Assembly (NCBI GenBank): GCA_014860225.1
Contig: JACZKE010000023.1
Coordinates: 48,787-112,786 of the forward strand
DNA: 64,000 nucleotides
Direction of reading: 5' to 3'
Source of the DNA: Desulfuromonadales bacterium
GTDB lineage: Bacteria > Desulfobacterota > Desulfuromonadia > Desulfuromonadales > BM103
A program made the translations under genes and the position numbers. The notes beneath the pieces are model-generated. The model searched no databases and was not told where the DNA came from. It saw only the letters and a list, made by a program, of their open reading frames with translations. Below are positions 39,407-57,859 of the stretch, in pieces (the first letter of the stretch is position 1; every line of letters begins with the position of its first letter).

Positions 39407-40780
39407 ATGCGACTTGCTCTTAAATATCAGATAATTATGGCGCCTGCTGCTGTCCTTTGTCTGATGACTTTGCTGCTGTGTTTTTTGCAGTTCACCTACT
39501 GGGACATGTCGGTCAAGCGGCAGGAGGTCAAGAATCTTAAAACGGCATTTATCGCCTTGGCGGAAGCCGATATGGCGGCTCAGCGCATGCACGGGGTTGT
39601 CCGCTTTCTGGCTGAAACTTCTGAGTTTGATCACAGGACTCTGGTGCAGATGTCGAACCTGCATAACCATCTTGCGATGGCCATTGATCAATTACAGAGA
39701 ACCGGGTTGTCGGATGCGTCATCCATGAATCTTCTGCTGAAAAGTGTTGCCGATCTGGATCCTGAGCAGGGGATACAGTTGGAACGCTTTGATCAAACCC
39801 TGAATTGGCTGCATCCCCATATAACCGAGCAGCTTGATGAGTTGAACCAGCGCCGCGAGAACCTGAGTGACGTGCATCGTGAAGATATCGATGCCCTGAT
39901 TGCCGAGACGACCTTTGTTACCATTATCGTACTTGGTTTCGCCATCCTGGTGGGGATACTGCTGTCCCTTGCCCTGGCTCGCCATATTCTGCATCGCATC
40001 CAGGTGCTCTCTGACGGCGCCGCACGCATCACCTCTGGTGATTTTACCCCGCCTCCAGCCCCGGAGAAGATCCGCGACGAACTCGACGGTTTGGCGGTTT
40101 CCATCAATCGCATGACAGGCCAGCTGATTCGGGTGGTAGCTGCCGAGAAACTCCTGGAAGGTGCCGAAGAGGAGCGTCGACGCATCGCCATGGATATCCA
40201 TGATCAGACCCTTGCTGATTTGTCAGCCGTCCGAAGAGGCTTGGAGACTCTGACTCAGGCAACACCCTGCGGTGAGGCAGTGGCGTCGATTGAAGCTGAT
40301 CTCCAGCGGGCGATGACCAACCTGAGGGCGGTGATGGATAACCTGCATCCGCAGACTTTGGATATCCTTGGCTTGCCTGCAGCGCTTGAATCCTATCTGG
40401 AGAAATCCTGCGAGTCACCAGGTTCCCCCGCTTATCATTTTCTGGCGAACCCAGATGCTGCGGCGCCCGATTTGCCGCGACTGACCCAGGTGACTGTCTA
40501 CCGGATGGTTGTTGAAGCCGTCAATAATGCCTTGCGACACGCCCATGCCAGTCTGTTGGAAGTCAGCATGACGCTGCGTGGCGGATTCCTGGTTGTTGCC
40601 GTGGAAGATAATGGCCGGGGCTTTGATCATACCCCCCGTTTGCCGACAGCCTCAGGCGGAAGGGGACTGCACAATATCCGGGAACGGGCCCGGGCGATTG
40701 GCGCCCAGGTATGCTGGCGGGATTCACGTTTTTCTTCTGGAACGAGGTTCGAACTGACGTTGCCACTTATTAAAAGTTAA
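39407..40780 (+). CDS. sensor histidine kinase, NarX/DegS-type (HisKA_3)
   Basis: RRRIAMDIHDQTLADLSAVRRGLETL; NNALRHAHAS; GGRGLHNIRERARAIGA. Confidence 0.92.
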   Translation: MRLALKYQIIMAPAAVLCLMTLLLCFLQFTYWDMSVKRQEVKNLKTAFIALAEADMAAQRMHGVVRFLAETSEFDHRTLVQMSNLHNHLAMAIDQLQRTGLSDASSMNLLLKSVADLDPEQGIQLERFDQTLNWLHPHITEQLDELNQRRENLSDVHREDIDALIAETTFVTIIVLGFAILVGILLSLALARHILHRIQVLSDGAARITSGDFTPPPAPEKIRDELDGLAVSINRMTGQLIRVVAAEKLLEGAEEERRRIAMDIHDQTLADLSAVRRGLETLTQATPCGEAVASIEADLQRAMTNLRAVMDNLHPQTLDILGLPAALESYLEKSCESPGSPAYHFLANPDAAAPDLPRLTQVTVYRMVVEAVNNALRHAHASLLEVSMTLRGGFLVVAVEDNGRGFDHTPRLPTASGGRGLHNIRERARAIGAQVCWRDSRFSSGTRFELTLPLIKS

Positions 40781-40792
40781 GGAGAGGATTGC

Positions 40793-41539
40793 ATGGCACC
40801 TTATTGCCTGATTATAGCCGAAGACAATCCCAAAGATTTCGAATTTCTCAAGCAGATGATCGATGATTGGGAGTACGACTGTGTGGTTGAGCATGCACCG
40901 GATGGATTGGTCGCCTTCGAGCTTGCGCTGGCCCACGACAGGCCGTTGATCATCAGTGACATCCAGATGCCGCAGATGAATGGCGTGGACTTTGCCAGGG
41001 CTCTCTGGGAGCGTAAACCTCAGGCGAGGATCGTCTTCTGGAGCCAGTTCAAAGACGAGATGTACGTGCGCACGCTGGCCAAGATCGTTCCTCCGGAAAC
41101 GGTCTACGGTTATGTCCTTAAATCAAGCCCCCGCGATAAGATCTCGGCGGCCGTGGCCACGGTACTTTTTGATGACCAATGCTGGATCGACCCTGAAGTC
41201 CGCAAAGTTCAGGGACGTGCCGGACACAGTCAGACAGCACTTTCAGACATTGAGTACGAAGCCCTGATTGATATTTCTCTCGGCCTGACCGACAACCTCA
41301 TCGCTCAACGCCGCTATCTTTCACGGCGCGGTGTGCAAAGCCGCCTTAACTCTCTCTATGGTAAGTTGAGTCTCGACCGCGAGCAGTTTCAGAGCGACAA
41401 GGTTGGTGATGCCTTCAACCTGCGTAATCGTGCTGTGTCTGTCGCCCTGCGTCGTGGTCTGATCAATGCATTTGAACTGGGGCATGAAGAAGAATATCTG
41501 CAGGATTGGCTGAAGCGTTATAAGGGCGGCATGGGATAG
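40793..41539 (+). CDS. response regulator with divergent LuxR-like C-terminus
   Basis: LIISDIQMPQMNGVDFARAL receiver; SDIEYEALIDISLGLTDNLIAQRRYLSRRGVQSRLNSLYGKL. Confidence 0.85.
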   Translation: MAPYCLIIAEDNPKDFEFLKQMIDDWEYDCVVEHAPDGLVAFELALAHDRPLIISDIQMPQMNGVDFARALWERKPQARIVFWSQFKDEMYVRTLAKIVPPETVYGYVLKSSPRDKISAAVATVLFDDQCWIDPEVRKVQGRAGHSQTALSDIEYEALIDISLGLTDNLIAQRRYLSRRGVQSRLNSLYGKLSLDREQFQSDKVGDAFNLRNRAVSVALRRGLINAFELGHEEEYLQDWLKRYKGGMG

Positions 41540-41627
41540 GAGCGAGAAGTGAGGAGCGAGGAGTCAAAAACAACGACAGGCGCCCGGAGCCTTTGCCGTT
41601 GTAAAAGCTTTGGCATTATGTTAAAAA

Positions 41628-41640
41628 TTGGTCATACCAA
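41628..41640. promoter_or_regulatory. candidate FadR/LldR-type operator O1 (autoregulation)
   Basis: TTGGTCATACCAA 21 nt upstream of the regulator start. Confidence 0.7.
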
Positions 41641-41660
41641 ATTACGAGTGGGGTAAAGGC

Positions 41661-42389
41661 ATGACCATTGTTCTTGAGCCAATCCGGCCGAAAAAAATAT
41701 CCGAAGAAATTGTCATACAGATCAAACAACTGATCTCCAAAGGCGAACTCAAACCGGGGGATCGCATCCCCTCGGAACGCGAATTGGCGACCATGCTCAG
41801 CGTCAGTCGACCCTCTGTTCGTGAAGCGATCATGGTCCTCGAGGCGATGGGCTTTCTGGATTCACGACAGGGCGGTGGCACGTTTGTCAAAGCCCTGACT
41901 GAAGGCAGCATTATGGATCCGTTGGCCAAACTGGTGGAACAGCGGGATCCTGAACTGTTGCGGGCACTTGCAGAAGTGCGTATGGGACTGGAGAGCTGGT
42001 CGGCCTACCTTGCGGCAAAAAGGGCCAATGCTGAAGACATTGCGGATATGCGTCGGCTTTATGTGATCATGGAAAAACAGGCGGCCAAAGGCGGCTGGAA
42101 TTCTGAGATCGATGCAGAGTTTCATTATGCGATTACCGCGGCAAGTCACAACAGCCTGCAGATGCATGTGCTCGACTCTATTCACACCCTGTTTAACGCC
42201 ACAATCCAGGTGGCTTTGATGGAGTTTTACCAACAGCAAGGGCATATTCAACTGTTGCTGACCCATCATCGCGAGATCATGGAAGCGATTGCCGCCCATC
42301 AGCCTGAACTGGCTCGTGAGAAGATGATGGAACATCTTACGATGGTCGAGGAGAAGATGGCACAGCTTCTTGAAGAAAAAGGCAAATGA
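41661..42389 (+). CDS. FadR-subfamily GntR transcriptional regulator (LldR/GlcC-like)
   Basis: IVIQIKQLISKGELKPGDRIPSERELATMLSVSRPSVREAIMVLEAMGFL; FCD-type C-terminus. Confidence 0.93.
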   Translation: MTIVLEPIRPKKISEEIVIQIKQLISKGELKPGDRIPSERELATMLSVSRPSVREAIMVLEAMGFLDSRQGGGTFVKALTEGSIMDPLAKLVEQRDPELLRALAEVRMGLESWSAYLAAKRANAEDIADMRRLYVIMEKQAAKGGWNSEIDAEFHYAITAASHNSLQMHVLDSIHTLFNATIQVALMEFYQQQGHIQLLLTHHREIMEAIAAHQPELAREKMMEHLTMVEEKMAQLLEEKGK

Positions 42390-42434
42390 GCAGGGGCGCT
42401 GCTAACAGGACGGGGAAAACATCAGAACAATGTG

Positions 42435-42467
42435 CGGGGACAGGATTGATATCCTGTCCCCGTTTTT
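42435..42467 (+). terminator. intrinsic terminator
   Basis: cggggacaggat-tgat-atcctgtccccg followed by ttttt. Confidence 0.85.
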
Positions 42468-42535
42468 AACTTTGGCGTTGACGTTTCGCGGTTCCGTGAA
42501 AAGGAGTAGGTCCCCGGCGGAGCCAACCCTGGCTA

Positions 42536-43834
42536 TCAGTCGATCGCCATGCCCAGAAGTTCGGTGATATGCACGACTTTCTGTGACAGGCCGGCCCGCT
42601 TCAGGCCCCAGGCCAGTTGCAGATGACAGCCGGGATTGGCAGTGACCAGCAGTTCGGCACCGGTTGATTGTACATTCTGTAGTTTGCGGTCGAGAATCTG
42701 CTGACTCTCGTCAGTATATTTGAGGCTGAAGGTTGCGGCACTGCCGCAGCACCAGCTGGCCTCGTTGAGTTCGCGGTAGTCAATCCCGGGAATCGCCTTG
42801 ATCAGATCACGCGGTTGTTTGCTGACTCCCTGCGCATGGCAGAGGTGGCAGGGCTCGTGGTAGGTGACGATCTTGTTGACCGGTTTCAAGCCCTCCGTCC
42901 TTAATCCCTGTTCTGCCAGAAATTCACTGACGTCCTTGACCTTGCCGCGGAAGGCTGCCAGTTTGTCATGCGAACCCGTCTCTTCAAGTAATTCTTCATA
43001 CTCTTTCAGGGCTGCTCCACAGCCGGCACAGTCGGTAACAATTGCATCGACATCCAGGGCCATGAAAAGGTCGAGGTTGTGTTGAGCTATGCGGCGGGCA
43101 GTGTCTCGATCGCCCTCGGTCAGATGAGGAGCGCCGCAACACTTTTGTGCCTTCGGCGTCAATACTTCAAAACCCTGCTGGGTCAGTACACGCACAGTCT
43201 GGCGTGAAACTTCCGCATACATCAGGGTCATGATGCAGCCGAGGAAAAAGCCGACGCGGCCACGTTGTTCGCCAACCGCAGGAATGCTGTCCGCTAACTG
43301 GGGTCGCAACGGCGGATGCAGTTCAGGCATCATGCCTTCTGCCTTGTCCACCCATTCCGGGCCCAGCTTGAGCAGGTGCGAATGACGAAGCAGCCACTGG
43401 ATGCCGAGTTTCTGATAGAGTCTGGCAGGCAGCATCGAATGTTCCAGCAGGTCAGGACTGGGCAACATCTTCTGCAGGACGAACTCACGGAACGATTTAC
43501 CCACATGCTTGAGTGGGAAAAACTGGTGGGCCTGGCTGCGGCAGATTTCCATGACTTCACCGGCACGTACACCGGAGGGACAGGCGGTGGTGCAGGCTCG
43601 ACAGTCGAGGCAGAAGAATGCTTCTTCCTTGACTGCTTCGGTGAACTCGAGCTTTTGCTCGGCCACAGCCCGGGCCAGGGCCACGCGACCGCGGGGACTG
43701 GAGCGCTCGCGGCCTGTCAGGGCGAAGGTCGGACAAGTCGGCAGACAGAAGCCGCAGCGCATGCACTGCAGGACATCACAGTAATCGGGCGCGTCATGTG
43801 CCGTGAAGTTACCGAGTTTTTCAGTGGGAGACAC
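42536..43834 (-). CDS. (Fe-S)-binding subunit of FAD-linked 2-hydroxyacid oxidase (GlcF-like)
   Basis: CMRCGFCLPTCPTF, CLDCRACTTACPSG, CCGAPHL, CCGSAATF; GTG start with RBS gaggag. Confidence 0.92.
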   Translation of the reverse strand: MSPTEKLGNFTAHDAPDYCDVLQCMRCGFCLPTCPTFALTGRERSSPRGRVALARAVAEQKLEFTEAVKEEAFFCLDCRACTTACPSGVRAGEVMEICRSQAHQFFPLKHVGKSFREFVLQKMLPSPDLLEHSMLPARLYQKLGIQWLLRHSHLLKLGPEWVDKAEGMMPELHPPLRPQLADSIPAVGEQRGRVGFFLGCIMTLMYAEVSRQTVRVLTQQGFEVLTPKAQKCCGAPHLTEGDRDTARRIAQHNLDLFMALDVDAIVTDCAGCGAALKEYEELLEETGSHDKLAAFRGKVKDVSEFLAEQGLRTEGLKPVNKIVTYHEPCHLCHAQGVSKQPRDLIKAIPGIDYRELNEASWCCGSAATFSLKYTDESQQILDRKLQNVQSTGAELLVTANPGCHLQLAWGLKRAGLSQKVVHITELLGMAID

Positions 43835-45254
43835 GGAAGCCCTCCTCGACGTGCGCCTGGGTACAGGGATCATCATCAGCGAAGATTTTACCGGGATTGA
43901 GGAGTCCTTTGGGATCGAAGGCGTCCTTGATACGCTTCATCACTTTGACGCCGCCAGGACCTATCTGCCGGGCCAGGTACTCTTTCTTGGCCAGACCGAT
44001 GCCATGTTCTCCTGAGACGGTGCCACCCCAGGCCAGCACCTGATCGTAGAGGTCGTCATAAAAAGCATGGGCCCGGTGCATCTCGTCGCTGTCACGCTCA
44101 TCACAGAGCACGGTCGGGTGCAGATTGCCATCGCCGGCATGGCCGAAGGTGCCGACCTTGAGGCCGTATTTAGCGGTAAGCCGCTCGATTTCCGCGAACG
44201 TCTCAGCGAGCCGTGAACGGGGTACGGTGGCATCCTCCAGTAGTGTGGTCGGCGACACGCGCGCCAGTGCGGAGAGTGCGGTGCGCCGCGCTGCAGCCAG
44301 GCTGTTGGCCTCTTCGACACTTTTGGCGACATGCACTTCTGCTGCCTTGACCTGTTCGAGGATTTTTTTCACCCCCTGTGACTCTTCTTCGACCATGGCC
44401 GGATGGCCGTCTACCTCGATCAGCAGCAGGGCTGCCATCTGACGCGGCAGGCCGATCTTGACGTAATCCTCGACGCAGTTGATGGTCGCCTTGTCCATAA
44501 TCTCCATGGTCGAGGGGATGATCTTGGCGGCAATAATCTTCGAGACCGCCTCACCGGCGGTGCGGATGTCGTTGAAGTATGCGAGGAAAGTCCGTTTGTC
44601 CTGGGGCGGCGGGATCAGTTTGACCGTAACCTCGGTGATGATGCCGAGCGTACCCTCCGAACCGACCAGCAGGTCCTTGAACGCGTAGCCGGCGACATCC
44701 TTGACGCTTTTGCCCCCGGTGGTCAGGATGCTGCCGTCGGGCAACACGCACTTGAGCGCCATCACGTAATCACGGGTGACGCCATACTTCAGGCCGCGCA
44801 GACCGCCGGCATCTTCCATGACGTTGCCGCCGAGAGTCGAGATCTTCTGTGAACCGGGGTCCGGCGGATAAAACAATCCCTTGGCAGCGGTGGCATTGAA
44901 CAGATCGAGGGTGACCACGCCGGCTTCTGCTGTAGCGGTGAGGTTCTCTTCATCGATCTCCAGGATCCGGTTCATGCGGTTGAGACAGAGGACCATGCCT
45001 CCTTTGACCGGCACACTGCCACCGGACAGCCCGGTTCCCGAGCCGCGCGGCACTATCGGCAGGCCCTCGTGCTGGGCGATCTCCATGGCGTCGAGCACCC
45101 CTGCAGTCGTGGTCGGATAGACCGCAACTTCAGGGAGGTGATGAACCCCCGGGGTGGAATCGTAGCCCAGGACCAGCAGATCTTCCTTTTCGCTGGCGAC
45201 ATTTGCTGCACTCAGTTTGTCAACCAGATGGCCAATGGCCGTTTTTGAAATCAT
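43821..45254 (-). CDS. FAD-linked 2-hydroxyacid (glycolate/D-lactate) oxidase (GlcD-like)
   Basis: PIVPRGSGTGLSGGSVPVKGG; GHAGDGNLHPTVL; GTVSGEHGIGLAKK. Confidence 0.93.
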   Translation of the reverse strand: MISKTAIGHLVDKLSAANVASEKEDLLVLGYDSTPGVHHLPEVAVYPTTTAGVLDAMEIAQHEGLPIVPRGSGTGLSGGSVPVKGGMVLCLNRMNRILEIDEENLTATAEAGVVTLDLFNATAAKGLFYPPDPGSQKISTLGGNVMEDAGGLRGLKYGVTRDYVMALKCVLPDGSILTTGGKSVKDVAGYAFKDLLVGSEGTLGIITEVTVKLIPPPQDKRTFLAYFNDIRTAGEAVSKIIAAKIIPSTMEIMDKATINCVEDYVKIGLPRQMAALLLIEVDGHPAMVEEESQGVKKILEQVKAAEVHVAKSVEEANSLAAARRTALSALARVSPTTLLEDATVPRSRLAETFAEIERLTAKYGLKVGTFGHAGDGNLHPTVLCDERDSDEMHRAHAFYDDLYDQVLAWGGTVSGEHGIGLAKKEYLARQIGPGGVKVMKRIKDAFDPKGLLNPGKIFADDDPCTQAHVEEGFRVSH

Positions 45255-45274
45255 GATGGTGTCCTTAAATGCAT

Positions 45275-45307
45275 CGGGGCACGCGGGCAAAAGTACCGCG
45301 TGCCCCG
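45275..45307. other. intercistronic hairpin between usp and glcD-like gene
   Basis: cggggcacgcgg-N9-ccgcgtgccccg, 12-bp perfect stem. Confidence 0.7.
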
Positions 45308-45340
45308 AAAATAATGGCCGGCAGCGTTTGCGCCGGCAAC

Positions 45341-45850
45341 TCAGAACCCTTGTTCGTGAAAGCCTGCCGGAATCCGCACCACCAACACCGGTTGGGCGGC
45401 GCTGTGCAGAACCTTGTGGGTGGTGCTGCCGAGCATTGCATCGCCAATCACGGTGTGGCGGTGCGCGCCCATAATGATCAGGTCGACAGCGTATTCCCTG
45501 GCAGCCGCCAGGATGATCTGAGCCGGCTGACCCTCTTCAATCAGGATCTCGTTGACCCGCTGCGTACACTGCTGGTCCGTGCCACATTCCTTTTCACATA
45601 GCCGGGTGATGCGTTCTCGCAGTTTTTCCTTGGCCTGAATCTGCGCCTTGCTGTGGATCTCTGCCGATTGCTCATGGGAAATGTGTAACTCCACCAGACT
45701 CTGGGCAAAGGTAGACAAAGGCTCCAGCGCCGAGACGGCAATGATCTGCGCGTCGTGCTGTCTGGCCAAAGCGAGAGCATAGCGGAACACGTAGGGAGCT
45801 CCTGCGCCCATACCTGTGGCGTAAAGAATCTTATTGATTTTGGGAAGCAT
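45341..45850 (-). CDS. universal stress protein
   Basis: ILYATGMGAGAPYVFRYALALARQHDAQIIAV; DLIIMGAHRHTVIGDAMLGSTTHKVL. Confidence 0.92.
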   Translation of the reverse strand: MLPKINKILYATGMGAGAPYVFRYALALARQHDAQIIAVSALEPLSTFAQSLVELHISHEQSAEIHSKAQIQAKEKLRERITRLCEKECGTDQQCTQRVNEILIEEGQPAQIILAAAREYAVDLIIMGAHRHTVIGDAMLGSTTHKVLHSAAQPVLVVRIPAGFHEQGF

Positions 45851-45891
45851 GGCTTAACCTCTCCAGCTTTTGGGTTCAGAAGGCATTGTGG

Positions 45892-47232
45892 CTAACCACC
45901 GAAAAAGACGCTCGGCAGCCAAGTGATGATTTCCGGAAAACCGATCATGATCGCAAGGCCGATGATCTGGATAATGACAAAAGGGACGATCCCTTTGTAA
46001 ATGTCACTCATGGTGTACTCAGGTGGTGCGACACCTTTGAAATAAAACAGGGCGTAGCCGAAAGGTGGCGTCAAAAATGAGGTCTGCAGATTAATGCAGA
46101 TCAGCATGGCAAACCACAGCGGATTGAAGTCGAGGTCCATGGCGATCGGGGTGAAGATTGGCACGACCACCAGCAGAATCGCGGCCCAGTCGATGAACAT
46201 GCCGAGGAAGAAGACGACTGCCATCATGATTGCCAGTACCACGTAGGGACTGACGTCCATACCGAGTAGGGAATCGGCCACGACGTCGCCGCCGCCCATG
46301 CTCAGAAAAACCACACTGAACAATTTACCGCCGATGAACAGGGCCATGATCATCGCCGTAGTCTTGGCCGTCGAGATCGAAGCCTGAGTGATGACGTCCC
46401 AGTTGCATGTTCGCTTGAAGACGGCCAGCACCATGGCACCAACACAGCCGAGGGCCGCCGCTTCGGTCGGGGTGGCGACCCCGGCGAGGATGGTTCCCAT
46501 GACTGTCAGGATCAGCGCGAAGGGCGGGACGAAGCTCTTCATGGTCATGGTGAACTTCTGCATTAAAGTGTGAGTCCGCTCTTCCAGGGGAATCGGCGGA
46601 CCGAGTTTGGGATTGAACGCACAGCGGATGCCGACATAGGCCATGTAGAGGCCGGAGAGCAGCAGGCCCGGCAGGATCGCCCCGGCGAACAGGTTGCCGA
46701 CCGAAGTCTCCTTGAGACCAGTCAGACCGCCATAGACGACCAGCATGATCGACGGCGGGATGAGAATGCCGAGGGTTCCCGAAGAGCAGATGATCCCGGC
46801 CGAAAGCCCCCGATCGTAGCCGCGTCGCAGCAGTGCCGGACCGGCCATCAATCCCATGGCAACGACCGACGCGCCGATGATGCCGGTGGTTGCGGCGAAG
46901 ACCGTGGAGACAACGATGACCGCAAGTCCCAGGCCGCCACGCAGCCCTCCAAGTACAATGTAGAGGGCGTCAAACAACCCCTCAGAGACCTTCGAACGGT
47001 CGAGAATCTGGGCCATGAAGATAAACAGCGGGATGGCAACCAGCGTGTAATTAAGAAAAATCCCCCAGGTGTTGTTGACGAACAGGTCGAGCAGTGCGGG
47101 GACATTGAAGCCGTTGTCAATGAGGCCGTACAGAGTGGCGACGCTGGCCAGGGTGATCGCCAAAGGATGACCCAGGGTGATCGACACCACCAGCGTGCCG
47201 AACATCAGGATAGTGAGAACTTCTGCGCTCAT
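45892..47232 (-). CDS. TRAP transporter large permease (DctM)
   Basis: 446 aa, multi-TM, GIICSSGTLGILIPPSIMLVVYG. Confidence 0.95.
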   Translation of the reverse strand: MSAEVLTILMFGTLVVSITLGHPLAITLASVATLYGLIDNGFNVPALLDLFVNNTWGIFLNYTLVAIPLFIFMAQILDRSKVSEGLFDALYIVLGGLRGGLGLAVIVVSTVFAATTGIIGASVVAMGLMAGPALLRRGYDRGLSAGIICSSGTLGILIPPSIMLVVYGGLTGLKETSVGNLFAGAILPGLLLSGLYMAYVGIRCAFNPKLGPPIPLEERTHTLMQKFTMTMKSFVPPFALILTVMGTILAGVATPTEAAALGCVGAMVLAVFKRTCNWDVITQASISTAKTTAMIMALFIGGKLFSVVFLSMGGGDVVADSLLGMDVSPYVVLAIMMAVVFFLGMFIDWAAILLVVVPIFTPIAMDLDFNPLWFAMLICINLQTSFLTPPFGYALFYFKGVAPPEYTMSDIYKGIVPFVIIQIIGLAIMIGFPEIITWLPSVFFGG

Positions 47233-47260
47233 AATGAATATATTCTCCGAGGGGGTACGA

Positions 47261-47758
47261 TTAATCGTCGCTGCGCAGAGCGCGGAAGTCTTGTATCAAC
47301 TTCGCCAGCCCCTGCAGAAATAACAGGATAAAGCCAATGGCCATGATCGTCTTGTAAGGATAGATCGCCGGTGCCCAGGAGCTTGAAGCATTTTCCCAAC
47401 CCTGCCAGGATGTCGCGGCATAAATCACCGACCAGATCGCCAGCATGCCGACCGTCGGGATGAACAGAATCAGGTTGGAAAGGATGCGTAAAATGGTCCG
47501 GGGCTTTTTCGCCAGCCGGGCTTCAAAAACGTCAATGGCCACATGCCCGTCGTGCTTGTGGGCAAAGGCGAGGGCCAACATGAAATGAATCCCGTAGATA
47601 AAGGTGGTCATTTCAAAGGCCCAGGAGGTTGGTGCGTTGAAGGCATAACGCATCAGTACTTCGTAGGAAACCACGCCGATCAGAGGAAGGACCAGGTAGG
47701 CGGTGTAAAAGCCAACCTTTTCGTTGAGGGCGTCGATCGCCCGGTCGAAGAATGCCAT
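47261..47758 (-). CDS. TRAP transporter small permease (DctQ)
   Basis: 4-TM 165 aa between DctM and DctP. Confidence 0.93.
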   Translation of the reverse strand: MAFFDRAIDALNEKVGFYTAYLVLPLIGVVSYEVLMRYAFNAPTSWAFEMTTFIYGIHFMLALAFAHKHDGHVAIDVFEARLAKKPRTILRILSNLILFIPTVGMLAIWSVIYAATSWQGWENASSSWAPAIYPYKTIMAIGFILLFLQGLAKLIQDFRALRSDD

Positions 47759-47809
47759 GGGGAAACCTCGTTAAAAACTGTTGCTCTGTTGATTGCCTGA
47801 ACAAAATAA

Positions 47810-47834
47810 GGCGGGGGCCGTAGCGACCCCCGCC
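47810..47834. other. intercistronic hairpin between dctP and dctQ
   Basis: ggcggggg-N9-cccccgcc. Confidence 0.7.
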
Positions 47835-47847
47835 CGGTTTTAAATTG

Positions 47848-49005
47848 TTACTGGAGCCGCTTGCCCGCGATGAAATCATCGATCGGCCAAGGGGTCAGGC
47901 CACTACGGATTTCACGCCATTTGGCGAAATCCTTCTTGAACTGTTCCTGGGAGTCGAGGGTCTTCTTGACTTCAGGATACTTGGCTTTAACTTCTTCCAG
48001 GTATTCCTTGGTGCGTTTGGCGAAAGCGGTGATCGCCTCATCGTCCATCTTGACGAACTCGACTTTCTCTTCGAATTTCTCGATCGCCTCGATGTTCAGC
48101 TGCTCCTGCCAGGCAGTCGACCAGAGCTGGGTCTCCTTGGCGGCGATGTCGACGATCCATTTCAGGTCGGCCGGCAGCTTGTTGTAGGCATCCTTGTTAA
48201 AGAAGAGGGCGCATTGAACCGAAGGCTGATGTACGCCCGGCTCGATGACGTATTTAGTGATTTCATCGAAACCCATCGGGTAGTTGATGGCCGGGGAGGA
48301 GAATTCGGCGGCGTCAATAACACCACGCTCGAGAGCGAGATAAACTTCACCGCCGGGCAGCGGGGTAACCGAGGCACCGAGAGAATTCATAATGTCCATG
48401 TACCAGCCCGGGGTGCGGACGCGCATACCTTTGAAGTCGGCCATCTTCTCGGCTTTTTTGTTGGAAAAGAAGCCCATTTCCTGGCCGCCGTTGCCGCCCG
48501 GAAGAGCGAACAAGTTGAACTGGCCGTAAAGTTCCTGCATCTGCTCGAGACCACCACGCTCATAAAGCCAGATGTTGTAACCCTCCGTGTCGAGGCCGAA
48601 GGGGACCGAGGCGAAAGAAACGAAGTTCTCGTTCTTGCCTTTCCAGTAGCCGGGCCAGTCATGTCCGACTTCAGCCGAGCCTTTGCTGACGGCATCGAAG
48701 CTCTCCATGGCGCCGACCAGTTCGCCGGCCGAGAACAGCTTGATTTCGAGGCGGCCACCAGAGGCCAAGGCCACTGAATCAGCGAAATGTTGCGCCATAT
48801 CGTAGAAAAGCAGGCCTTTGGACCAGGGCATGACCATCTTCCATCTGAAGGTTTCTGTCGAGGGCTTGATGGTACGCAGCTCTTTCTTGACTTCATCGTG
48901 GCGCTTATCGGCACCGAACTTCTCGCGCTTGGCGGCGAAAGCCGCCGGGGCACATGCCAGGCTGAGAACGACCAGCAGGCCAACTAATTGTTTCATTTTC
49001 TTCAT
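47848..49005 (-). CDS. TRAP transporter substrate-binding protein (DctP)
   Basis: Signal peptide; MRVRTPGWYMDIMNSLGASVTPLPGGEVYLALERGVIDAAEF. Confidence 0.95.
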   Translation of the reverse strand: MKKMKQLVGLLVVLSLACAPAAFAAKREKFGADKRHDEVKKELRTIKPSTETFRWKMVMPWSKGLLFYDMAQHFADSVALASGGRLEIKLFSAGELVGAMESFDAVSKGSAEVGHDWPGYWKGKNENFVSFASVPFGLDTEGYNIWLYERGGLEQMQELYGQFNLFALPGGNGGQEMGFFSNKKAEKMADFKGMRVRTPGWYMDIMNSLGASVTPLPGGEVYLALERGVIDAAEFSSPAINYPMGFDEITKYVIEPGVHQPSVQCALFFNKDAYNKLPADLKWIVDIAAKETQLWSTAWQEQLNIEAIEKFEEKVEFVKMDDEAITAFAKRTKEYLEEVKAKYPEVKKTLDSQEQFKKDFAKWREIRSGLTPWPIDDFIAGKRLQ

Positions 49006-49040
49006 GATGGAGCCTCCTTTGCTTGGGTTGCGGTTTTATC

Positions 49041-49056
49041 ATGGTCACGTGACCAT
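49041..49056. promoter_or_regulatory. 16-bp perfect palindrome upstream of dctP
   Basis: ATGGTCACGTGACCAT read directly, 36-51 nt upstream of ATG. Confidence 0.45.
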
Positions 49057-49085
49057 TGTGAGCACTTTCTACATTAGACCAATAA

Positions 49086-49098
49086 TTGGTATGACCAG
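49086..49098. promoter_or_regulatory. candidate FadR/LldR-type operator O2
   Basis: TTGGTATGACCAG upstream of the dctPQM-usp-glcDF operon. Confidence 0.6.
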
Positions 49099-49276
49099 TT
49101 GTGAAACGTTAGCCAATCTTCTCCAACAGGTCAAGAAAAAAAACAAACAACGTTGTATCGAATTGAAAATGCCAGAAATTGAGCGAATTACACGTCTGGT
49201 TCAGTTATGTCTTCCTGAATGTCTGCAAATCAACAATTCAGGCTCGCGACCGAGTCTGGCTCTGTAGTTCTCCAGC

Positions 49277-50035
49277 TCAGCAGGCGGTCCAGCCACAATC
49301 GATGGTAAAGTCTGTGCCGGTCATGCAACCGGCCGCATCCGAGCAGAGGTAAAGCACGGCCGCACCTATCTCGCCCGGTTCGATCATCCTTTTAATGGAC
49401 GCTTTCTTGAGCATGATGCTGTTGATGACTTCTTCCCTGGGAATGTTGTGAGTTGCAGCTTGAGCGTCGATCTGGTTATCCACCAGTGGTGTCCGCACAT
49501 AAGCCGGACAGATGGCATTGACCGTGATTCCGTGTGGTCCGCCTTCCAGGGCGGTGGTCTTGGTCAGGCCCATGAGGCCGTGTTTGGCGCTGATGTAGGC
49601 GGATTTGAATTCGCTGGCGCGCAGACCGTGCACCGAGCTGATGTTGATCACCCGGCCCCAGCCTGCCGCCTTCATGTACGGCCAGGCATATTTGGTGAGC
49701 AGGAAGGGGGCGGTCAGCATCAGACGGATCATGAAATCCCATTTGTCTTCGGGAAAATCTTCCACCGGGCTGACATGCTGCATGCCGGCATTGTTGATCA
49801 GGACATCGACTGAACCGTATTTGGCAACAGCCGAGTCGATCAGGGCCTTGCAGGCTGCGCGATCGCTGAGGTCGGCGTGAAGGAAATAAGCGTTAAGACG
49901 GTCGGCTTCGCGTTTGCCGGACTCGGCATTGACATCAGCCATGACCAATCGGTAGCCAGTCGCTGCCAGGGCATCTGCGACGGCCAGACCAATGCCGCTG
50001 GCAGCACCGGTGATAACTGCAACTTTTTGTGACAT
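49277..50035 (-). CDS. 3-hydroxybutyrate dehydrogenase (SDR)
   Basis: VAVITGAASGIGLAVADALA; INNAGMQHVSPVEDFPEDKWD; YISAKHGLMGLTK. Confidence 0.92.
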   Translation of the reverse strand: MSQKVAVITGAASGIGLAVADALAATGYRLVMADVNAESGKREADRLNAYFLHADLSDRAACKALIDSAVAKYGSVDVLINNAGMQHVSPVEDFPEDKWDFMIRLMLTAPFLLTKYAWPYMKAAGWGRVINISSVHGLRASEFKSAYISAKHGLMGLTKTTALEGGPHGITVNAICPAYVRTPLVDNQIDAQAATHNIPREEVINSIMLKKASIKRMIEPGEIGAAVLYLCSDAAGCMTGTDFTIDCGWTAC

Positions 50036-50116
50036 GCAACGTCTCCTTTGTATGATTATTGATTTCTGCCCACGGTTTAGCGGGGTGGTCTCCACCTCAT
50101 TCCTTACGGCTAACCC

Positions 50117-51484
50117 TCACGGAGACAGAAGATTGTCGGCGACCCGGAAGTCGCAGCCGGTGGTTGCCCGAACATCCTCAAGATTAGAGAAGGGTGAAAT
50201 CTCGGTCAGGATCAGTCCCGCTTCGGCATCGACCGTGAAGACAGCCTTGTCCGTCACCAGCAGGTCGACCACCTGCCGACCGGTGACTGGCAGGTCGCAC
50301 TCTTCGAGAATCTTGGGTGCGCCGTCCTTGGAGCAGTGCTCCATCATAATCACAACTTTCTTGACTCCGGAAACCAGGTCCATAGCGCCGCCCGGGCCTT
50401 TAACCATTTTGCCGGGGATCATCCAGTTGGCAAGATCGCCGGTTCTGCTGACCTGCATGCCGCCGAGCACCGACAGATCGATGTGCCCGCCGCGGATCAT
50501 GGCGAAGGATTCCGAAGAGTCAAAGTAACTGGCTCCCGGCAGAGCAGTGATGGTCTGTTTGCCGGCATTGATCAGGTCGGGATCGAGTCGGTCTTCCGTG
50601 GGGAAAGGTCCAATGCCGAGCAGGCCGTTCTCTGACTGCAGGGTGACCTGGATGCCCTCGGGGATGAAATTCGCCACCAGGGTCGGCATGCCGATCCCCA
50701 GGTTGATATAAGCACCATCAACCAGCTCCTGGGCGACGCGTCTGGCCATCCATTCGCGTTGCGGATTGAAGCCTTTGGCCGAAATGCCGGCACCGGAGAC
50801 AGTGCGTTGCTCAATCGGTTTTTCGTAGTTGCTGCCGAGGACCAGGCGGTCGACATAGACGCCGGGGACATGGATCTGGTGCGGATCGAGCTCGCCGATC
50901 TCGACGATTTCCTCGACTTCGGCCACCGTGAAGCGGCCAGCCTTGGCACAGGCGACGTTGAAATTGTTGGCGGTCTTGTTCATCACCAGGTTGCCCGCTT
51001 TGTCAGCTTTCCAGGCCTTGACAATCGCCAGGTCGGCCTGAATGCTCTCTTCCAGAACGTAGGAGAGTCCGTTAAACTCCTTGATCTCTTTACCTTCGCT
51101 TAACAGTGTGCCGTAACCGGTACGGGTGAAGAAGGCCGGAATGCCGGCGCCGCCGGCACGCAATTTCTCAGCGAGGGTCCCCTGTGGAGTCAGCTCGAGT
51201 TCCAGTTCACCATCGAGGAATTGTTTTTCGAACAAGGCGTTTTCGCCCACATATGAGGAGATCATCTTGTGGATCTGACGGGTTTGCAGCAACAGGCCGA
51301 GACCAAAATCATCCACTCCGGCATTGTTGCTGACCACGGTCAATTGTTTTGCTCCGGACTCGCGCAGGGCCAGAATCAGTTTTTCGGGGATACCGCAGAG
51401 ACCGAAGCCGCCGGCGGCCACAGTCATATTGTCTGCGACCACTCCTTCTAAAGCTTTGAGGGCATCAGTGAATACCGGTTTCAT
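50117..51484 (-). CDS. 3-oxoacid/acetate CoA-transferase, fused alpha and beta subunits
   Basis: [16 protein letters not shown] (alpha) and [27 protein letters not shown]...[11 protein letters not shown] (beta, Glu). Confidence 0.94.
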
Positions 51485-51508
51485 GTGTTCTCCTTTAAGG
51501 GTTTGTGT

Positions 51509-52684
51509 TTAACAGCATTCAAAGACAGCAGCTACGGCTTCTCCGCCGCCGATGCAAAGGCTGGCAACGCCGTAGCGTAGCTGACGAGCCCGCAGCTCAC
51601 GGATCAAGGTCACGGCAAGACGTGCACCGCTGGCGCCGACCGGATGGCCGATAGCAACCGCGCCGCCATTGACGTTGACTTTGTCCGCATCGATACCCAG
51701 TTCGCGTATGGCAACCAGCGGTACCGCCGCAAAAGCTTCATTGATTTCGAAGAGGTCGATGTCGGCCAGAGTCAGGCCGGCCCGCGCAACGGCACGCTGA
51801 ATGGCACCGATCGGTGCTTCGGCAAAATCATCCGGGGCCAGGCTGTTGGTCGCCGCTGCGACCAGACGGGCGATCGGTTTCAGGCTGTGGCGCTCCATGG
51901 CTTGTTTGGAACAGACCAGGACAAATGCGGCACCGTCGTTGATAGTCGAGGCGTTACCGGCCGTGATCGTACCGTCTTTTTTAAAGGCGGGACGCAGACC
52001 GGGTAGCTTGTCGATGCTGCCGCGTCCCGGCTCCTCATCCTGGTCGATAGTGATGTCACCTTTGCGGCTGCTCTTGGTCACCGGAGTCAACTCATCGGCG
52101 AAGACGCCTGCGGCAACGGCTGCCTGGGCCAGACGGTAGGAGCGGGCGGCGTATTGATCCTGGTCTTCACGGGTGAGACCATGACGCTCAACCCAGGTTT
52201 CAGTGATCTCGCCCATGTGACGTCCACTGTAAGGATCTTGCAGGGCATCGTAAATCATCAGGTCGAGGGCCTGGGCGTGCCCCATGCGCTGCCCGGTGCG
52301 CAGTGCAGGGAGGGCGTAGGGGGCAAGCGACATGCTTTCCATGCCACCGGCAATCACACTGTTGGCGTCGCCCAGACGAATGGTGTCGGCCGCCAGCATG
52401 ATTGCTTTGAGGCCACTGCCGCAGACCTTGTTGATCGTCATGGCGTGGACACCATCCGGCAGGCCGGCACGGCGCATGGCCTGACGCGCCGGGGCCTGGC
52501 CGCAGCCACCCTGGAGAACCTGTCCGACGATCACTTCGTCAATCGCTTCAGCAGGGATCTGTGAGCGGCGAAGCAGGTCGGCCATGACCTGACTGGCCAT
52601 CTCCGGAGCTGATATATCGCTTAAGACACCACCAAAAGAGCCAAAAGGTGTACGCCTCGCTTCAACAATAAAAACATCGTTCAT
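51509..52684 (-). CDS. acetyl-CoA acetyltransferase (thiolase)
   Basis: [34 protein letters not shown]; start [15 protein letters not shown]. Confidence 0.96.
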
Positions 52685-52747
52685 TGTACTTCTCCTGATA
52701 TAGTTTTTTTGTGGTTCAGCTTGAGACATAAAGGACATCGCCTCTTT

Positions 52748-52762
52748 GCAAAAAATGGACCT
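52748..52762 (-). promoter_or_regulatory. candidate sigma-54 promoter of the thiolase/CoA-transferase/BDH operon
   Basis: Minus strand AGGTCCATTTTTTGCA: GG-N10-GC, about 65 nt upstream of the thiolase start. Confidence 0.45.
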
Positions 52763-52993
52763 GCAGCCCATAATAATGCCAGACAGTCTCCTGAACGATG
52801 ATGCCGCAAAGGTTACAAGAGAAAACCGTTTAAGGTCTTGACTCCGGGCGGACTTTGCCATTTTGTTGTGATGTTTACGTCGTCAAAAGAACGTTGACGG
52901 GCAGCTTAAACGTAACGCGAAAGAAGGTAATGTCAATCACTCGAATGGCGAGTTTGATTTATTGCCAAACCGCTATTCCTTAGCGCCCGCCTG

Positions 52994-53018
52994 ACCGTTT
53001 GAGGATATATCAAACGGT
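52994..53018. promoter_or_regulatory. candidate enhancer, inverted repeat ACCGTTTGA-N7-TCAAACGGT
   Basis: 9-bp perfect arms located between the divergent thiolase operon and sigma-54 activator gene. Confidence 0.5.
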
Positions 53019-53158
53019 GTTATGAGTTTAACTGGTTGAGCAAATTTCGGGCCAGACGTGTAAATGGTTCCGGTTTTTAGTGTATGCCTATAAAAATATG
53101 CATTATGATCAAGTACTTAAGGATGGTTTTGACAAAAGCTTAAGTCCATCGCAATGGA

Positions 53159-53174
53159 TGGCAAGAGGTTTGCT
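53159..53174 (+). promoter_or_regulatory. candidate sigma-54 promoter toward the activator gene
   Basis: TGGCAAGAGGTTTGCT: close match to TGGCAC-N5-TTGCT. Confidence 0.5.
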
Positions 53175-53409
53175 GAATGAGAACGTGTATTCACTTGACT
53201 ACACATTGGCGGCGCGCTACGTTTGATGTGAACCAGAATAGTGTTACAGGAATAATAGTAAAACGTACAAGACGTCAGATAAAAGCACCTTGAAACAGCA
53301 GGTTGGCAAAATAATTTAGGCTGGACTGAGCCGTTGCCGGGGTAGGGTAAGTCTAGCTGACCATATTCAGCTACATGTAGCTAAACAAAGACAGTATGAA
53401 AGGTCATAC

Positions 53410-54852
53410 ATGAAGGTACACGAGGAGCCGGGATCTCAGCATACGAGTCAAGGAGTGGCTGTACAGTCACAAGTGCGCTTGGAAGAGACAAACCGCAAAC
53501 TGAAACTTGCCAATCTGATCTTTGACCACATTGAGAATGGTGCCGTGGTCACTGATAAGGAAGGCAATATCCTTTATTTCAATCGTCCTTATGCCCGTTT
53601 TCTTGGCCTCGAGGCCGAACACGTGATCGGTAAACATGTCACTGAGGTTCTCGAAGGCAGCCGCATGCATATCGTTGCCAGAACCGGCAAGGCCGAACTC
53701 AACCAGATCTTTACCTCCCGTGGGCGCGACATGGTCGTTCAGCGTATCCCCATTTTCGAAGATGGCAAGGTCGTTGCCGCCTTCGGCCAGATCATGTTCA
53801 AGCAGGTGAGCGATGTGGGTCGGTTGGCCAACAACCTCAGTCTGCTGGAGTCAAAGTTGAAACTGTATGAAAAGGAGCTGACCTCGCTGCGATCCAGTCG
53901 CTACAATTTCGATAGTATCCGTGGTGACAGCCTTCCGATCGTTAACCTGAAGGAAGCCGCGCGAAAAGCGGCGCTTACCGACCTGCCGATTCTTCTCACC
54001 GGGGAATCGGGAACCGGTAAAGAGTTGTTCGCCCAGGCGATTCACCAGAGCAGTTCGCGACATAAGCAAACTTCTGTTCACATCAACTGTGCGGCGATCC
54101 CCAAAGAATTGTTCGAAGCGGAACTGTTCGGTTATACAGAAGGGGCTTTCACCGGGGCCAAGCCCGGGGGAAAACCGGGCAAGCTGGAGTTGGCCGATGG
54201 TGGCACCCTGTTTCTGGATGAGATCGGTGAGATGCCTCTTGAGTCGCAGCCCAAGCTGCTACGCGTTCTGGAAGACAAACTTTTCGAGCGGGTGGGGGGG
54301 AACCGGATGCTCAAAAGCGATTTTCGGATTATTGCCGCGACCAACCGTGATCTGGAAGAGATGGTCAAGCAAAAACTGTTCAGAGAGGACCTCTTCTATC
54401 GCTTGAACGTTGTTTCCCTCGAAGTCCCGCCACTGAGGGAACGCCAGGGAGATATCATCCCATTGGCCAGACACCTACTGGGCAAGATTGCCGAAAATTA
54501 TCCGGGGTCACGCTATCAATTGACTCCAGCAGCAGAGAAAGTTCTGGAGGGTTATCATTGGCCGGGCAACATCCGTGAACTGATCAACGTCCTCGAGCGT
54601 ACCGCTTTCACCATTGACGGCAATTGTATAGATGCATGTGATCTGCCTTTCTACTTGAGCCGGCAGAGCCCTACCTCCTTGAAAAGTGGCCAATGGGACC
54701 TCGGCGCAGTGGTTGCCGAGGCCGAACGCGAGGCTTTGCGCAAGGCCTTGGAATTAACTGGCAACAATAAGGCTAAGGCCGCCAAGTTGCTCGGCATCCA
54801 TCGTACCGTGCTCTATAAAAAAATGACCAAATACCTGATTCCGTTGGGCTGA
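53410..54852 (+). CDS. PAS-domain sigma-54-dependent activator with Fis-type HTH
   Basis: LLTGESGTGKELFAQAIHQSS, GYTEGAFTGAKPGGKPG, NNKAKAAKLLGIHRTVLYKKMTKY. Confidence 0.95.
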   Translation: MKVHEEPGSQHTSQGVAVQSQVRLEETNRKLKLANLIFDHIENGAVVTDKEGNILYFNRPYARFLGLEAEHVIGKHVTEVLEGSRMHIVARTGKAELNQIFTSRGRDMVVQRIPIFEDGKVVAAFGQIMFKQVSDVGRLANNLSLLESKLKLYEKELTSLRSSRYNFDSIRGDSLPIVNLKEAARKAALTDLPILLTGESGTGKELFAQAIHQSSSRHKQTSVHINCAAIPKELFEAELFGYTEGAFTGAKPGGKPGKLELADGGTLFLDEIGEMPLESQPKLLRVLEDKLFERVGGNRMLKSDFRIIAATNRDLEEMVKQKLFREDLFYRLNVVSLEVPPLRERQGDIIPLARHLLGKIAENYPGSRYQLTPAAEKVLEGYHWPGNIRELINVLERTAFTIDGNCIDACDLPFYLSRQSPTSLKSGQWDLGAVVAEAEREALRKALELTGNNKAKAAKLLGIHRTVLYKKMTKYLIPLG

Positions 54853-54926
54853 AAGCTGCAGTGACGGTAATTGCAAGCCCTTCAGAAAGTGCTGCAGAGC
54901 AGATTCCTCTGTGATTAATCTCCCCC

Positions 54927-54956
54927 TTGACACAGGCCAGAGCTTGAGGTTATAAA
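54927..54956 (+). promoter_or_regulatory. candidate sigma-70 promoter of lldG operon
   Basis: TTGACA-N18-TATAAA immediately upstream of operator O3. Confidence 0.6.
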
Positions 54957-54969
54957 TTGGTAAGACCAA
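54957..54969. promoter_or_regulatory. candidate FadR/LldR-type operator O3
   Basis: TTGGTAAGACCAA within AAATTGGTAAGACCAATTTT, directly after the -10. Confidence 0.7.
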
Positions 54970-54993: not shown

Positions 54994-55542
54994 ATGTTGA
55001 ATCAGTTTGCAGAGGCCTTGAAAAAGGTGGGTGGCCAGGTTACCGAGGTTGCGACCGCGCGTGAGGCTGCGGTCTATATCGCCGGGCGGATAAACGGAAC
55101 GGTGCTGTTGCCGCCACAGTCGAGCCTGGAACGGGCCGGTCTTGCCGCGGCCCTGGAAGCGGAAGGGGTGACGGTGATCAAAGATTCCTGGCGCGAGCAT
55201 GCTCCTGCCGCCGGCGCAGGTGTGACCGGTGTCAATTTCGCCCTGGCAGATACGGGCACCCTGGTGCTCGACAGTACCGCCGAGTCGCTACGCTTGACGA
55301 CGACTTTGCCGGAGCGTCACTTCGCTCTGCTCGATCCGTGCAAAATCCTGGCTGACAGTCTGGATGCCGTCCCATACCTGCGTGGATTTCATGAGCGCGC
55401 CCCGCGAAACTACCTTGCCTATATCACTGGGCCGAGCCGTACCGCCGATATCGAACGGGTGCTGACCATCGGTGTCCACGGCCCACGCGAGCTGCATGTC
55501 CTGCTGATGCCGGGGCTGAGCGCCGATTTTTATGAACTTTAA
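54994..55542 (+). CDS. lldG: LUD-domain protein, LldG/LutC family
   Basis: VTGVNFALADTGTLVLDSTAESLRLTTTLPERHFALLDPCKILADS; adjacent to LldF/E. Confidence 0.88.
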   Translation: MLNQFAEALKKVGGQVTEVATAREAAVYIAGRINGTVLLPPQSSLERAGLAAALEAEGVTVIKDSWREHAPAAGAGVTGVNFALADTGTLVLDSTAESLRLTTTLPERHFALLDPCKILADSLDAVPYLRGFHERAPRNYLAYITGPSRTADIERVLTIGVHGPRELHVLLMPGLSADFYEL

Positions 55543-55702: not shown

Positions 55703-57859
55703 GTGACATTGATGAGTCGAGAACGCAATCGCAACTACCGCCAGCGGGTCGACGAGGCCCTTGCTACACCGCGTCTCCAAGAGGCGCTGCACACTTTCGG
55801 CGACGCCTATGTGATCGCGCGTCAGAACGCCTTTGCCGGTCTGGACTTCGAGGCGATGCGTACTGAAATTGCCGAGATGAAAGATCACGTGCGTGAGCAT
55901 CGCCAGGACCTGGTCGCTGAGTTCACCCGCAACGCCGAGGCAGCCGGGGCCAAGGTCTATCTGGCACGCACCGCCGAAGATGCCAATCGCTATATTGCCG
56001 AGCTGGCGATGCAGCATGGTGTGAAAAAGGTGGTCAAGAGCAAAAGCATGGCCAGCGAAGAAACGCATCTCAACCGGGCCCTCAAGGCTGCCGGGGTGGA
56101 AGCGCTGGAGACGGACCTCGGCGAATGGATTATCCAGTTGGCCGGTCAGCGTCCAAGTCATATGGTCATGCCGGCGATTCACATGTTCCGCGATGAAGTG
56201 GCCGCCCTGTTCGGCAAGGTGACCGGTCAGGTCGAGTCAGACGATATCCCGCACCTGGTCCAGGTCGCCCGTGAGCAGTTGCGTCAGGGCTACTTTGATG
56301 CCGACATGGGGATCAGCGGCGCCAACATGGCCATCGCCGAGACCGGCGGCATCGCGCTGATTACCAACGAAGGTAACGCCCGCCTGGCGACCACCCTGCC
56401 GAAGATTCATGTCGCCCTGGTCGGTCTGGAGAAGCTGGTGCCGACCCTGGAGGACGCGACCAAAGTTATGCGCGTTCTGCCGCGCAATGCCACAGGGCAG
56501 CTGTTGACCTCCTACGTCACCTGGATCCGTGGCGCCGTACCCTGCGGTGACGGCGACAAAGAACTGCATATCGTGCTGCTCGACAACGGTCGCAGCGCCC
56601 TGGCCGAATCGCCGCAGTGTCGTGACGCGCTGCGCTGTATCAAGTGTGGCGCCTGCGCCAACGTCTGCCCGGTCTATCAGACCGTCGGCGGCCATGTTTT
56701 CGGGCATATCTACATCAGCGCCATCGGTGTCATTCTCACAGCGTTCTATCACGGCCTGGAGAATGCCGCCGATCTGGTGAAAGCCTGCATCGGCTGCCGC
56801 GCCTGCGTTGCGGTCTGCCCGAGCGCCATCGACCTGGAAGGGATCATCCTGCATCTGCGGGAAGTGCTCGGCGATGAGGAGGGGATCGGTACCGGCAAGG
56901 CGCTGGTGTTCAAGCACATCATGCGCAACCGTAAGCTGTTCCACTCCATGATCCGTGCCGCCAGCCTGCTGCAGAAACCGGTGACTCGCGGCGAGCGCAG
57001 CATTCGTCACCTGCCGCTGTTCTTCTCGTCGCTCACCGAGTGGCGGACCCTGCCGGCAATTGCCGAGAAGCCGTTGCGGGACACGTGGCAAGCAATGCCG
57101 CAGCGGCTGGATAAGCCCCGATACCGGGTAGCGTTTTTTGCCGGCTGTCTCAATGATTTCGTTTACCCGGAAATGGGAGGCGATCTGGTCAAGGTGCTCA
57201 ACCATCTCAACGTTGAAGTCTTCTTTCCCAAAGAGCAGAACTGCTGCGGCGTGCCGGCTCTCTATTCGGGCGATCGCGAAACGGCGGTGGCTCTGGCCGA
57301 GCAGAATATAGAGGCGATGCTGGCCGATCAGCCTGATTTCGTGGTCACCACCTGTCCGACCTGCACCATGTCGCTGCAACGCGATTTTCTTGAACTGCTC
57401 CAGGATAACCCGGTGTGGGCGGAAAAGGCCCGACAGCTGGCTGATATCACCATCGACGTTTCGCGCTTTATCGTCGACAAGCTCGACGGCAAAGCGGTCT
57501 TTACCGATGCTTCCGGGCAGGAGAAGGTCACCTACCACGATTCCTGTCATCTCAAGCGCGGCGCCGGTGTCTGGGAGCAACCACGGCAACTGCTCGCCGG
57601 ATCCGGTCGCGAGGTGGTCGAAATGGCCCACAGCGATCGCTGCTGCGGCTTCGGCGGTTCCTACTCATTCACCAGTCATCCGGATATCGCCAAACATATC
57701 CTCAACGACAAGGTCAAGGATATCGAAGCGACCGGCGCGACCTGCGTCGCCATGGATTGCCCCGGCTGCATCATGCAGATTCGCGGCGGGCTGGAGAAGC
57801 AGGAAAAGTCGGTCAGAGCCAAGCATACCATCGAACTGCTGGCGGAAACCTTGCCATAA
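55703..57859 (+). CDS. L-lactate dehydrogenase iron-sulfur protein, LldF (LutB) fused to LldE (LutA)
   Basis: LUD domain (GISGANMAIAETGGIALITNEGNARLATTLPKIHVALVGLEKL), CIKCGACANVCP, CIGCRACVAVCP, then CCG domains (FFAGCLNDFVYPEMGGDL; NCCGVPALYSGD; CCGFGGSYSF). Confidence 0.92.
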   Translation: MTLMSRERNRNYRQRVDEALATPRLQEALHTFGDAYVIARQNAFAGLDFEAMRTEIAEMKDHVREHRQDLVAEFTRNAEAAGAKVYLARTAEDANRYIAELAMQHGVKKVVKSKSMASEETHLNRALKAAGVEALETDLGEWIIQLAGQRPSHMVMPAIHMFRDEVAALFGKVTGQVESDDIPHLVQVAREQLRQGYFDADMGISGANMAIAETGGIALITNEGNARLATTLPKIHVALVGLEKLVPTLEDATKVMRVLPRNATGQLLTSYVTWIRGAVPCGDGDKELHIVLLDNGRSALAESPQCRDALRCIKCGACANVCPVYQTVGGHVFGHIYISAIGVILTAFYHGLENAADLVKACIGCRACVAVCPSAIDLEGIILHLREVLGDEEGIGTGKALVFKHIMRNRKLFHSMIRAASLLQKPVTRGERSIRHLPLFFSSLTEWRTLPAIAEKPLRDTWQAMPQRLDKPRYRVAFFAGCLNDFVYPEMGGDLVKVLNHLNVEVFFPKEQNCCGVPALYSGDRETAVALAEQNIEAMLADQPDFVVTTCPTCTMSLQRDFLELLQDNPVWAEKARQLADITIDVSRFIVDKLDGKAVFTDASGQEKVTYHDSCHLKRGAGVWEQPRQLLAGSGREVVEMAHSDRCCGFGGSYSFTSHPDIAKHILNDKVKDIEATGATCVAMDCPGCIMQIRGGLEKQEKSVRAKHTIELLAETLP

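Follow-up and report, generated by a model that had tools for sequence, protein, structure and literature searches.

Can a single transcription factor coordinate separate operons for the use of lactate in a bacterium of the order Desulfuromonadales, which includes many metal-reducing and electrode-respiring species? The question is raised by a 64,000-nucleotide stretch of a Desulfuromonadales genome (GCA_014860225.1, contig JACZKE010000023.1; this whole stretch is called the window below). In the window, similar palindromes precede the gene of a FadR-subfamily regulator and two operons for transport and oxidation of 2-hydroxyacids. Based on sequence comparison, we consider the protein encoded at 41661-42389 to be an autoregulated LldR/PdhR-type repressor of lactate (2-hydroxyacid) uptake and oxidation, probably acting through three operators. 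We give this reading a probability of roughly 0.84.

Operator 1, TTGGTCATACCAA, is located at 41628-41640 (+ strand) in the regulator's own promoter and is conserved in orthologs. Operator 2 reads TTGGTATGACCAG on the + strand and CTGGTCATACCAA in the orientation of dctP, which is encoded on the - strand; it is located at 49086-49098, 87 bp before dctP. Operator 3, TTGGTAAGACCAA, is located at 54957-54969 (+ strand), 31 bp before lldG, and was identified from the sequence and from the upstream regions of relatives. All three agree letter for letter with the sequences reported at these positions in the initial annotation. Operators 1 and 3 are perfect 13-bp palindromes with a 3-bp centre, and operator 2 departs from this form at a single end base (G for A). 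A search of the 3.94-Mb genome with the extended motif ATTGGTNNNACCARWT at zero mismatches found three places, which were only the three operators. Because the pattern was written from these sites, its uniqueness is partly built in, and the comparative data serve as the independent test. With one mismatch allowed, the window contained seven matches against 6.6 expected, and six of the seven were the three operators on both strands. Four one-mismatch matches of the extended motif were inspected, and all were inside open reading frames. The two other genomic core matches of similar spacer, at C8:61255 and C9:4169, were rejected; they also lay inside open reading frames and did not match the extended motif.

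The sites were then compared among relatives. A regulator match (E up to 1e-40) was present in 45 of 58 related genomes. About 60 orthologous loci (57-91% identity) were compared. In all but a few of them, the core GGTCWTACC stood 22-29 bp ahead of the start codon of the regulator gene, mostly adjoining a TGnTAAAAA-type -10 with a TTGAC or TTGTT -35. The start codon or the site was offset in a few orthologs, and one ortholog (seen as L098 and L138) had no recognisable upstream site. Among relatives, about 24 of 29 dctP loci also carried a site, at a distance of about 70-180 bp upstream of the gene, and most lldG loci had one about 23-100 bp upstream. The chance expectation per upstream region was about 0.6% by composition shuffles (at least 9 of 10 letters) and about 1.3% in random sequence (at least 8 of 10 letters with an intact GGT/ACC core). 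Most regulator-bearing relatives had sites before both dctP and lldG, including genomes in which the regulator is unlinked. Among genomes at least 90% complete and carrying lldG, the lldG site was intact in 26 of 29 with the regulator and in 0 of 4 without it (Fisher p = 0.0009, with related genomes treated as independent). In one genome that is 86% complete (G011), no regulator was detected, yet sites were present at both targets; its regulator may be encoded in the missing part.

The same association was examined in fifteen genomes from other families within the order. WTTGGTMWKACCAAW occurred 0-2 times per genome and the control 0 times. Three of the eight places precede lldG and one precedes dctP. 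In many of these genomes, a stretch of about 10 kb around the regulator showed no lactate genes. Unlinked regulators had unrelated neighbours (dinB, histidine degradation, a GGDEF protein), dinB being the neighbour in three examined cases. An extra half-site (ACCAATTA or TATTGGT) abuts the operator in the lldG promoters of L278 and L279 and in several dctP promoters; this suggests that more than one dimer may bind there.

The regulator is a protein of 242 amino acids (41661-42389, + strand) that was placed in the PdhR/LldR group of the FadR subfamily (GntR-FCD) by Pfam, NCBIfam and PDB matches. Its Pfam domains scored 71.8 bits (GntR) and 84.7 bits (FCD), both above the cut-off, in the expected arrangement of an N-terminal GntR winged helix and a C-terminal all-helical FCD domain. 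FadR-subfamily operators with 3-nt spacing are well described, and the subfamily recognises palindromic TKGT/ACMA sequences with 2-3 nt between GT and AC (PMC4494728). The predicted operator TTGGT-N3-ACCAA has this form in the three promoters and in orthologs. Residues E39 and R40 and the stretch V48-E55 of the recognition helix, together with D151, H155, H203 and H225 of the FCD domain, were invariant in 17 orthologs and relatives. The latter four form the Asp and three His of the metal-binding FCD group; they align with the same residues of 2di3, which we take to be its metal ligands. The best PDB matches were PdhR chains. Among NCBIfam models, PdhR was best (NF007001, 180.6 bits, below its cut-off of 330), followed by LldR (NF007741, 174.4 bits, below 311) and GlcC (NF007442, 121.9 bits, below 301). 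The protein is the sole PdhR/LldR-like protein of the genome, the next two FCD relatives being 28-29% identical, and its named relatives at 60-90% identity were nearly all records of Desulfuromonadales or 'Deltaproteobacteria'. As expected for a functional LldR, operators were found at lactate transport and dehydrogenase genes. The initial annotation had proposed one self-regulated FadR-subfamily repressor for all three units. The specific sites, the sole candidate regulator, conservation, co-occurrence and the unlinked targets strongly support a single self-regulated regulator; that it represses is what we infer from the promoters.

The putative promoters place the operators at the start of transcription. 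The regulator promoter (41599-41627, + strand) has TTGTAA, 17 bp and TAAAAA, with TGn before the -10, and the arrangement is the same in orthologs. The dctP promoter (49106-49134, - strand), aligned with relatives, has TTGACC, 17 bp and TAACGT. The lldG promoter (54927-54955, + strand) has TTGACA, 17 bp and TTATAA, and its TTGAC is conserved in relatives. Since the operator begins 0 bp (regulator), 7 bp (dctP) and 1 bp (lldG) after the -10, it covers the expected transcription start in all three predicted promoters, which is the geometry of direct repression. Another perfect palindrome, TGGTCACGTGACCA (49042-49055), lies in the leader of dctP, past operator 2 and ahead of the gene. It is at most a possible fourth operator: its TGGT/ACCA halves are six rather than three positions apart, and similar sequences occur in close relatives only.

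From these observations the following mechanism can be proposed. A regulator dimer would bind AATTGGT-N3-ACCAATT-like sites in its own promoter and in the promoters of dctPQM-usp-glcDF and lldGH. The repressor bound at the predicted transcription start would block RNA polymerase. Lactate, or another small 2-hydroxy or 2-oxo acid, would bind the FCD domain and release the repressor from DNA. Release would induce uptake and both enzymes together, that is, the TRAP transporter, the GlcDF-type (probably D-lactate) dehydrogenase and the LldGH L-lactate dehydrogenase, and through the site in its own promoter the repressor would limit its own synthesis. That the protein binds these sites physically, that it represses and does not activate, and that lactate is the effector are all inferred here. 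Lactate is the likeliest effector by analogy with LldR of Pseudomonas aeruginosa, because that regulator is relieved by both lactate isomers; it covers both L-lactate dehydrogenase (LldD) and D-lactate dehydrogenase (LldE) in lldPDE (PMC11389411).

The genes of both target operons were identified by domain and NCBIfam matches, and the identities given in the initial annotation hold for the FCD/GntR regulator and for all of these genes. The first operon, on the - strand, consists of dctP-dctQ-dctM-usp-glcD-glcF. It encodes the TRAP solute-binding protein DctP (47848-49005), the small permease DctQ (47261-47758), the large permease DctM (45892-47232), a universal stress protein domain protein (Usp, 45341-45850), a GlcD-like FAD subunit of a 2-hydroxyacid dehydrogenase, probably for D-lactate (43821-45290; TIGR00387, 494.6 bits against a cut-off of 567.9), and a GlcF-like iron-sulfur subunit with cysteine-rich CCG and Fer4 domains (42536-43876). 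DctP is nearest to binders of 2-oxo and 2-hydroxy acids, and its best PDB matches include the ketoacid-binding 7ug8 and entries of the lactate-binding TTHA0766. The second operon, on the + strand, encodes LldG with a LUD domain (54994-55542) and an LldF-LldE fusion (LldH/LdhH; 55703-57859), the iron-sulfur subunit of L-lactate dehydrogenase (NF045670, 1013.1 bits, above the cut-off of 800). The predicted shared control supports annotating dctPQM as a lactate/2-hydroxyacid importer and assigning the GlcDF-type enzyme to lactate utilisation. Now that operator, promoter geometry and targets are defined, lactate control in this group can be tested directly and the regulon predicted in relatives.

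Several results weigh against this reading. The bare core TTGGTNNNACCA was not enriched genome-wide over its mirror control (45 places, 21+24, vs 51, 27+24). The flanks, promoter position and conservation therefore carry the case, and the core counts were set aside as evidence. The initial annotation had suggested that a motif upstream of genes at random frequency would argue against regulation; the flanked motif and its position proved specific, and the test would mislead if applied to the core, since the core occurs at control frequency. A simple consensus promoter scan listed none of the three proposed promoters, and comparative alignment was used instead. Three near-complete, regulator-positive genomes lacked an intact lldG site: G014, in which one core base is changed, G039 and G053. 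The PdhR and LldR scores are nearly equal and both below cut-off, which leaves room for pyruvate, glycolate or another acid as the effector. Finally, perfect operator-like sites precede rnfA in two sister genomes (L202, L205) and recR with pyruvate:ferredoxin oxidoreductase in a third (L201; named by eye from the translation). These sites are unconfirmed and may have arisen by chance.

The last two points bear on a rather unlikely alternative, in which the protein is a functional PdhR that senses the product pyruvate and whose regulon covers the pyruvate node more widely, with the lactate genes as one part of it. The slightly higher NCBIfam score for PdhR and the sites in the sister genomes are consistent with it. 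So are an operator identical to the E. coli PdhR box, AATTGGTnnnACCAATT, and the fact that E. coli PdhR represses lldPRD as well (PMC7660256). In this genome, however, full-motif sites occur only at genes for lactate-type transport and oxidation and at the regulator itself, and TRAP, GlcDF and LldGH together make up a lactate set.

It is also unlikely that the protein, though bound to these sites, acts mainly as an activator, or in both roles, and that another factor sits at a conserved element further upstream. E. coli LldR does activate some targets (PMC10272880), and the promoters of dctP and many of those of lldG do have a further conserved element ahead of the -35. Against this, the operator at the predicted +1 is in the classical position for repression, and the upstream element is unlike the operator. 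The element is of AAACRNYGTT type and is followed by a T-tract; in the window it is located at 49135-49154 (- strand), directly upstream of the dctP -35, as identified by alignment with relatives. Many relatives have it at lldG, and the window's own lldG promoter lacks it. In a genome-wide search for AAACRNYGTT followed by a -35, 1-3 places per genome were found in five of six genomes; in G001 these were exactly the dctP and lldG promoters, and in G005 those two and one other. Genome-wide counts of the element overall were not above control, so the evidence for it is positional. It is a candidate site of a second transcription factor, for example the two-component regulator encoded at 39407-41539, although no tie between the two was found in this analysis. 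We tentatively raise the possibility that a lactate regulon extends across the Desulfuromonadales, with a second factor joining the repressor at AAACRNYGTT, and that in some lineages this regulon has come to include, in trans, genes for the energy-conserving Rnf complex and pyruvate:ferredoxin oxidoreductase. If true, this would couple lactate oxidation with electron disposal.

A very unlikely reading is that of a GlcC-like regulator with glycolate as the effector and GlcDF as a glycolate oxidase. The naming of GlcD and GlcF fits it, and GlcC, another member of the subfamily, shares the 3-nt spacing (PMC4494728). The GlcC model nevertheless scored clearly lower (121.9 vs about 180 bits), lldG is the more widely kept target, and the cluster has no GlcE gene. 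That the sites are chance palindromes of a common core, as the control-level frequency of the bare core might suggest, is already refuted by conservation tied to position across many genera, by the joint occurrence of regulator and site, and by an extended motif unique to these promoters.

We also examined the genes around the targets. An operon for a thiolase, a CoA-transferase and a short-chain dehydrogenase (SDR) lies between the two target operons (49277-52861). This ketone-body operon had been described as an unrelated interruption. It is not a chance neighbour: thl-CoAT-bdh is conserved between dctP and lldG in several genera, and in some it stands back to back with lldG. In four loci (L097, L199, L203 and L204), lldG and one gene of this operon are oriented divergently on either side of the operator. 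A PAS/sigma-54 activator is encoded at 53410-54852, between the ketone-body operon and lldG; its closest NCBIfam model is PrdR, below cut-off. The two-component pair at 39407-41539, a histidine kinase (HisKA_3) and a response regulator, is directly upstream of the regulator gene. Many orthologous loci keep this pair beside the regulator, including loci where none of the lactate genes was seen nearby.

How does this system compare with known ones? A survey of regulons in Proteobacteria reported LldR in 55 genomes, and the Deltaproteobacteria had orthologs of only five of the studied factors (PMC5343134). Among open-licence papers, we found no description of a GntR-type lactate regulator in Desulfuromonadales, nor of one with the present set of targets. 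E. coli PdhR is likewise a FadR-subfamily GntR-FCD protein with the operator AATTGGTnnnACCAATT, a site in its own promoter and sites at lldP and glcD (PMC7660256). Its main target, however, is the pyruvate dehydrogenase operon, whereas full-motif sites here are confined to lactate-type genes and the regulator. The E. coli LldR box, AAnTGGTCnGACCAnTT, resembles the operator of the window (PMC10272880). LldR of E. coli and Pseudomonas is a lactate-responsive FadR-type regulator of permease and lactate dehydrogenase genes, and a similar response is expected here by analogy. The present case differs in its targets, which are a TRAP transporter, GlcDF and LldG-LldH divided between two operons, and in a score below the NCBIfam LldR cut-off. 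In Shewanella, one regulator (LldR*) also serves the lactate utilisation genes (PMC3223726), but in S. oneidensis it is of the LysR family (PMC8827060), not GntR. Desulfovibrio vulgaris, also an anaerobe, has a large lactate-metabolism operon (DVU3025-3033). That operon is controlled by sigma-54-dependent response regulators such as DVU3023 (PMC4641369), whereas the promoters in the window look sigma-70-like with a GntR operator. The operator and the logic thus match the known PdhR/LldR boxes, and what is new is the lineage, the target set of TRAP, GlcDF and LldGH, and the second element upstream of the -35. These comparisons support well the view that the locus is an ordinary new case of a known type of lactate switch.

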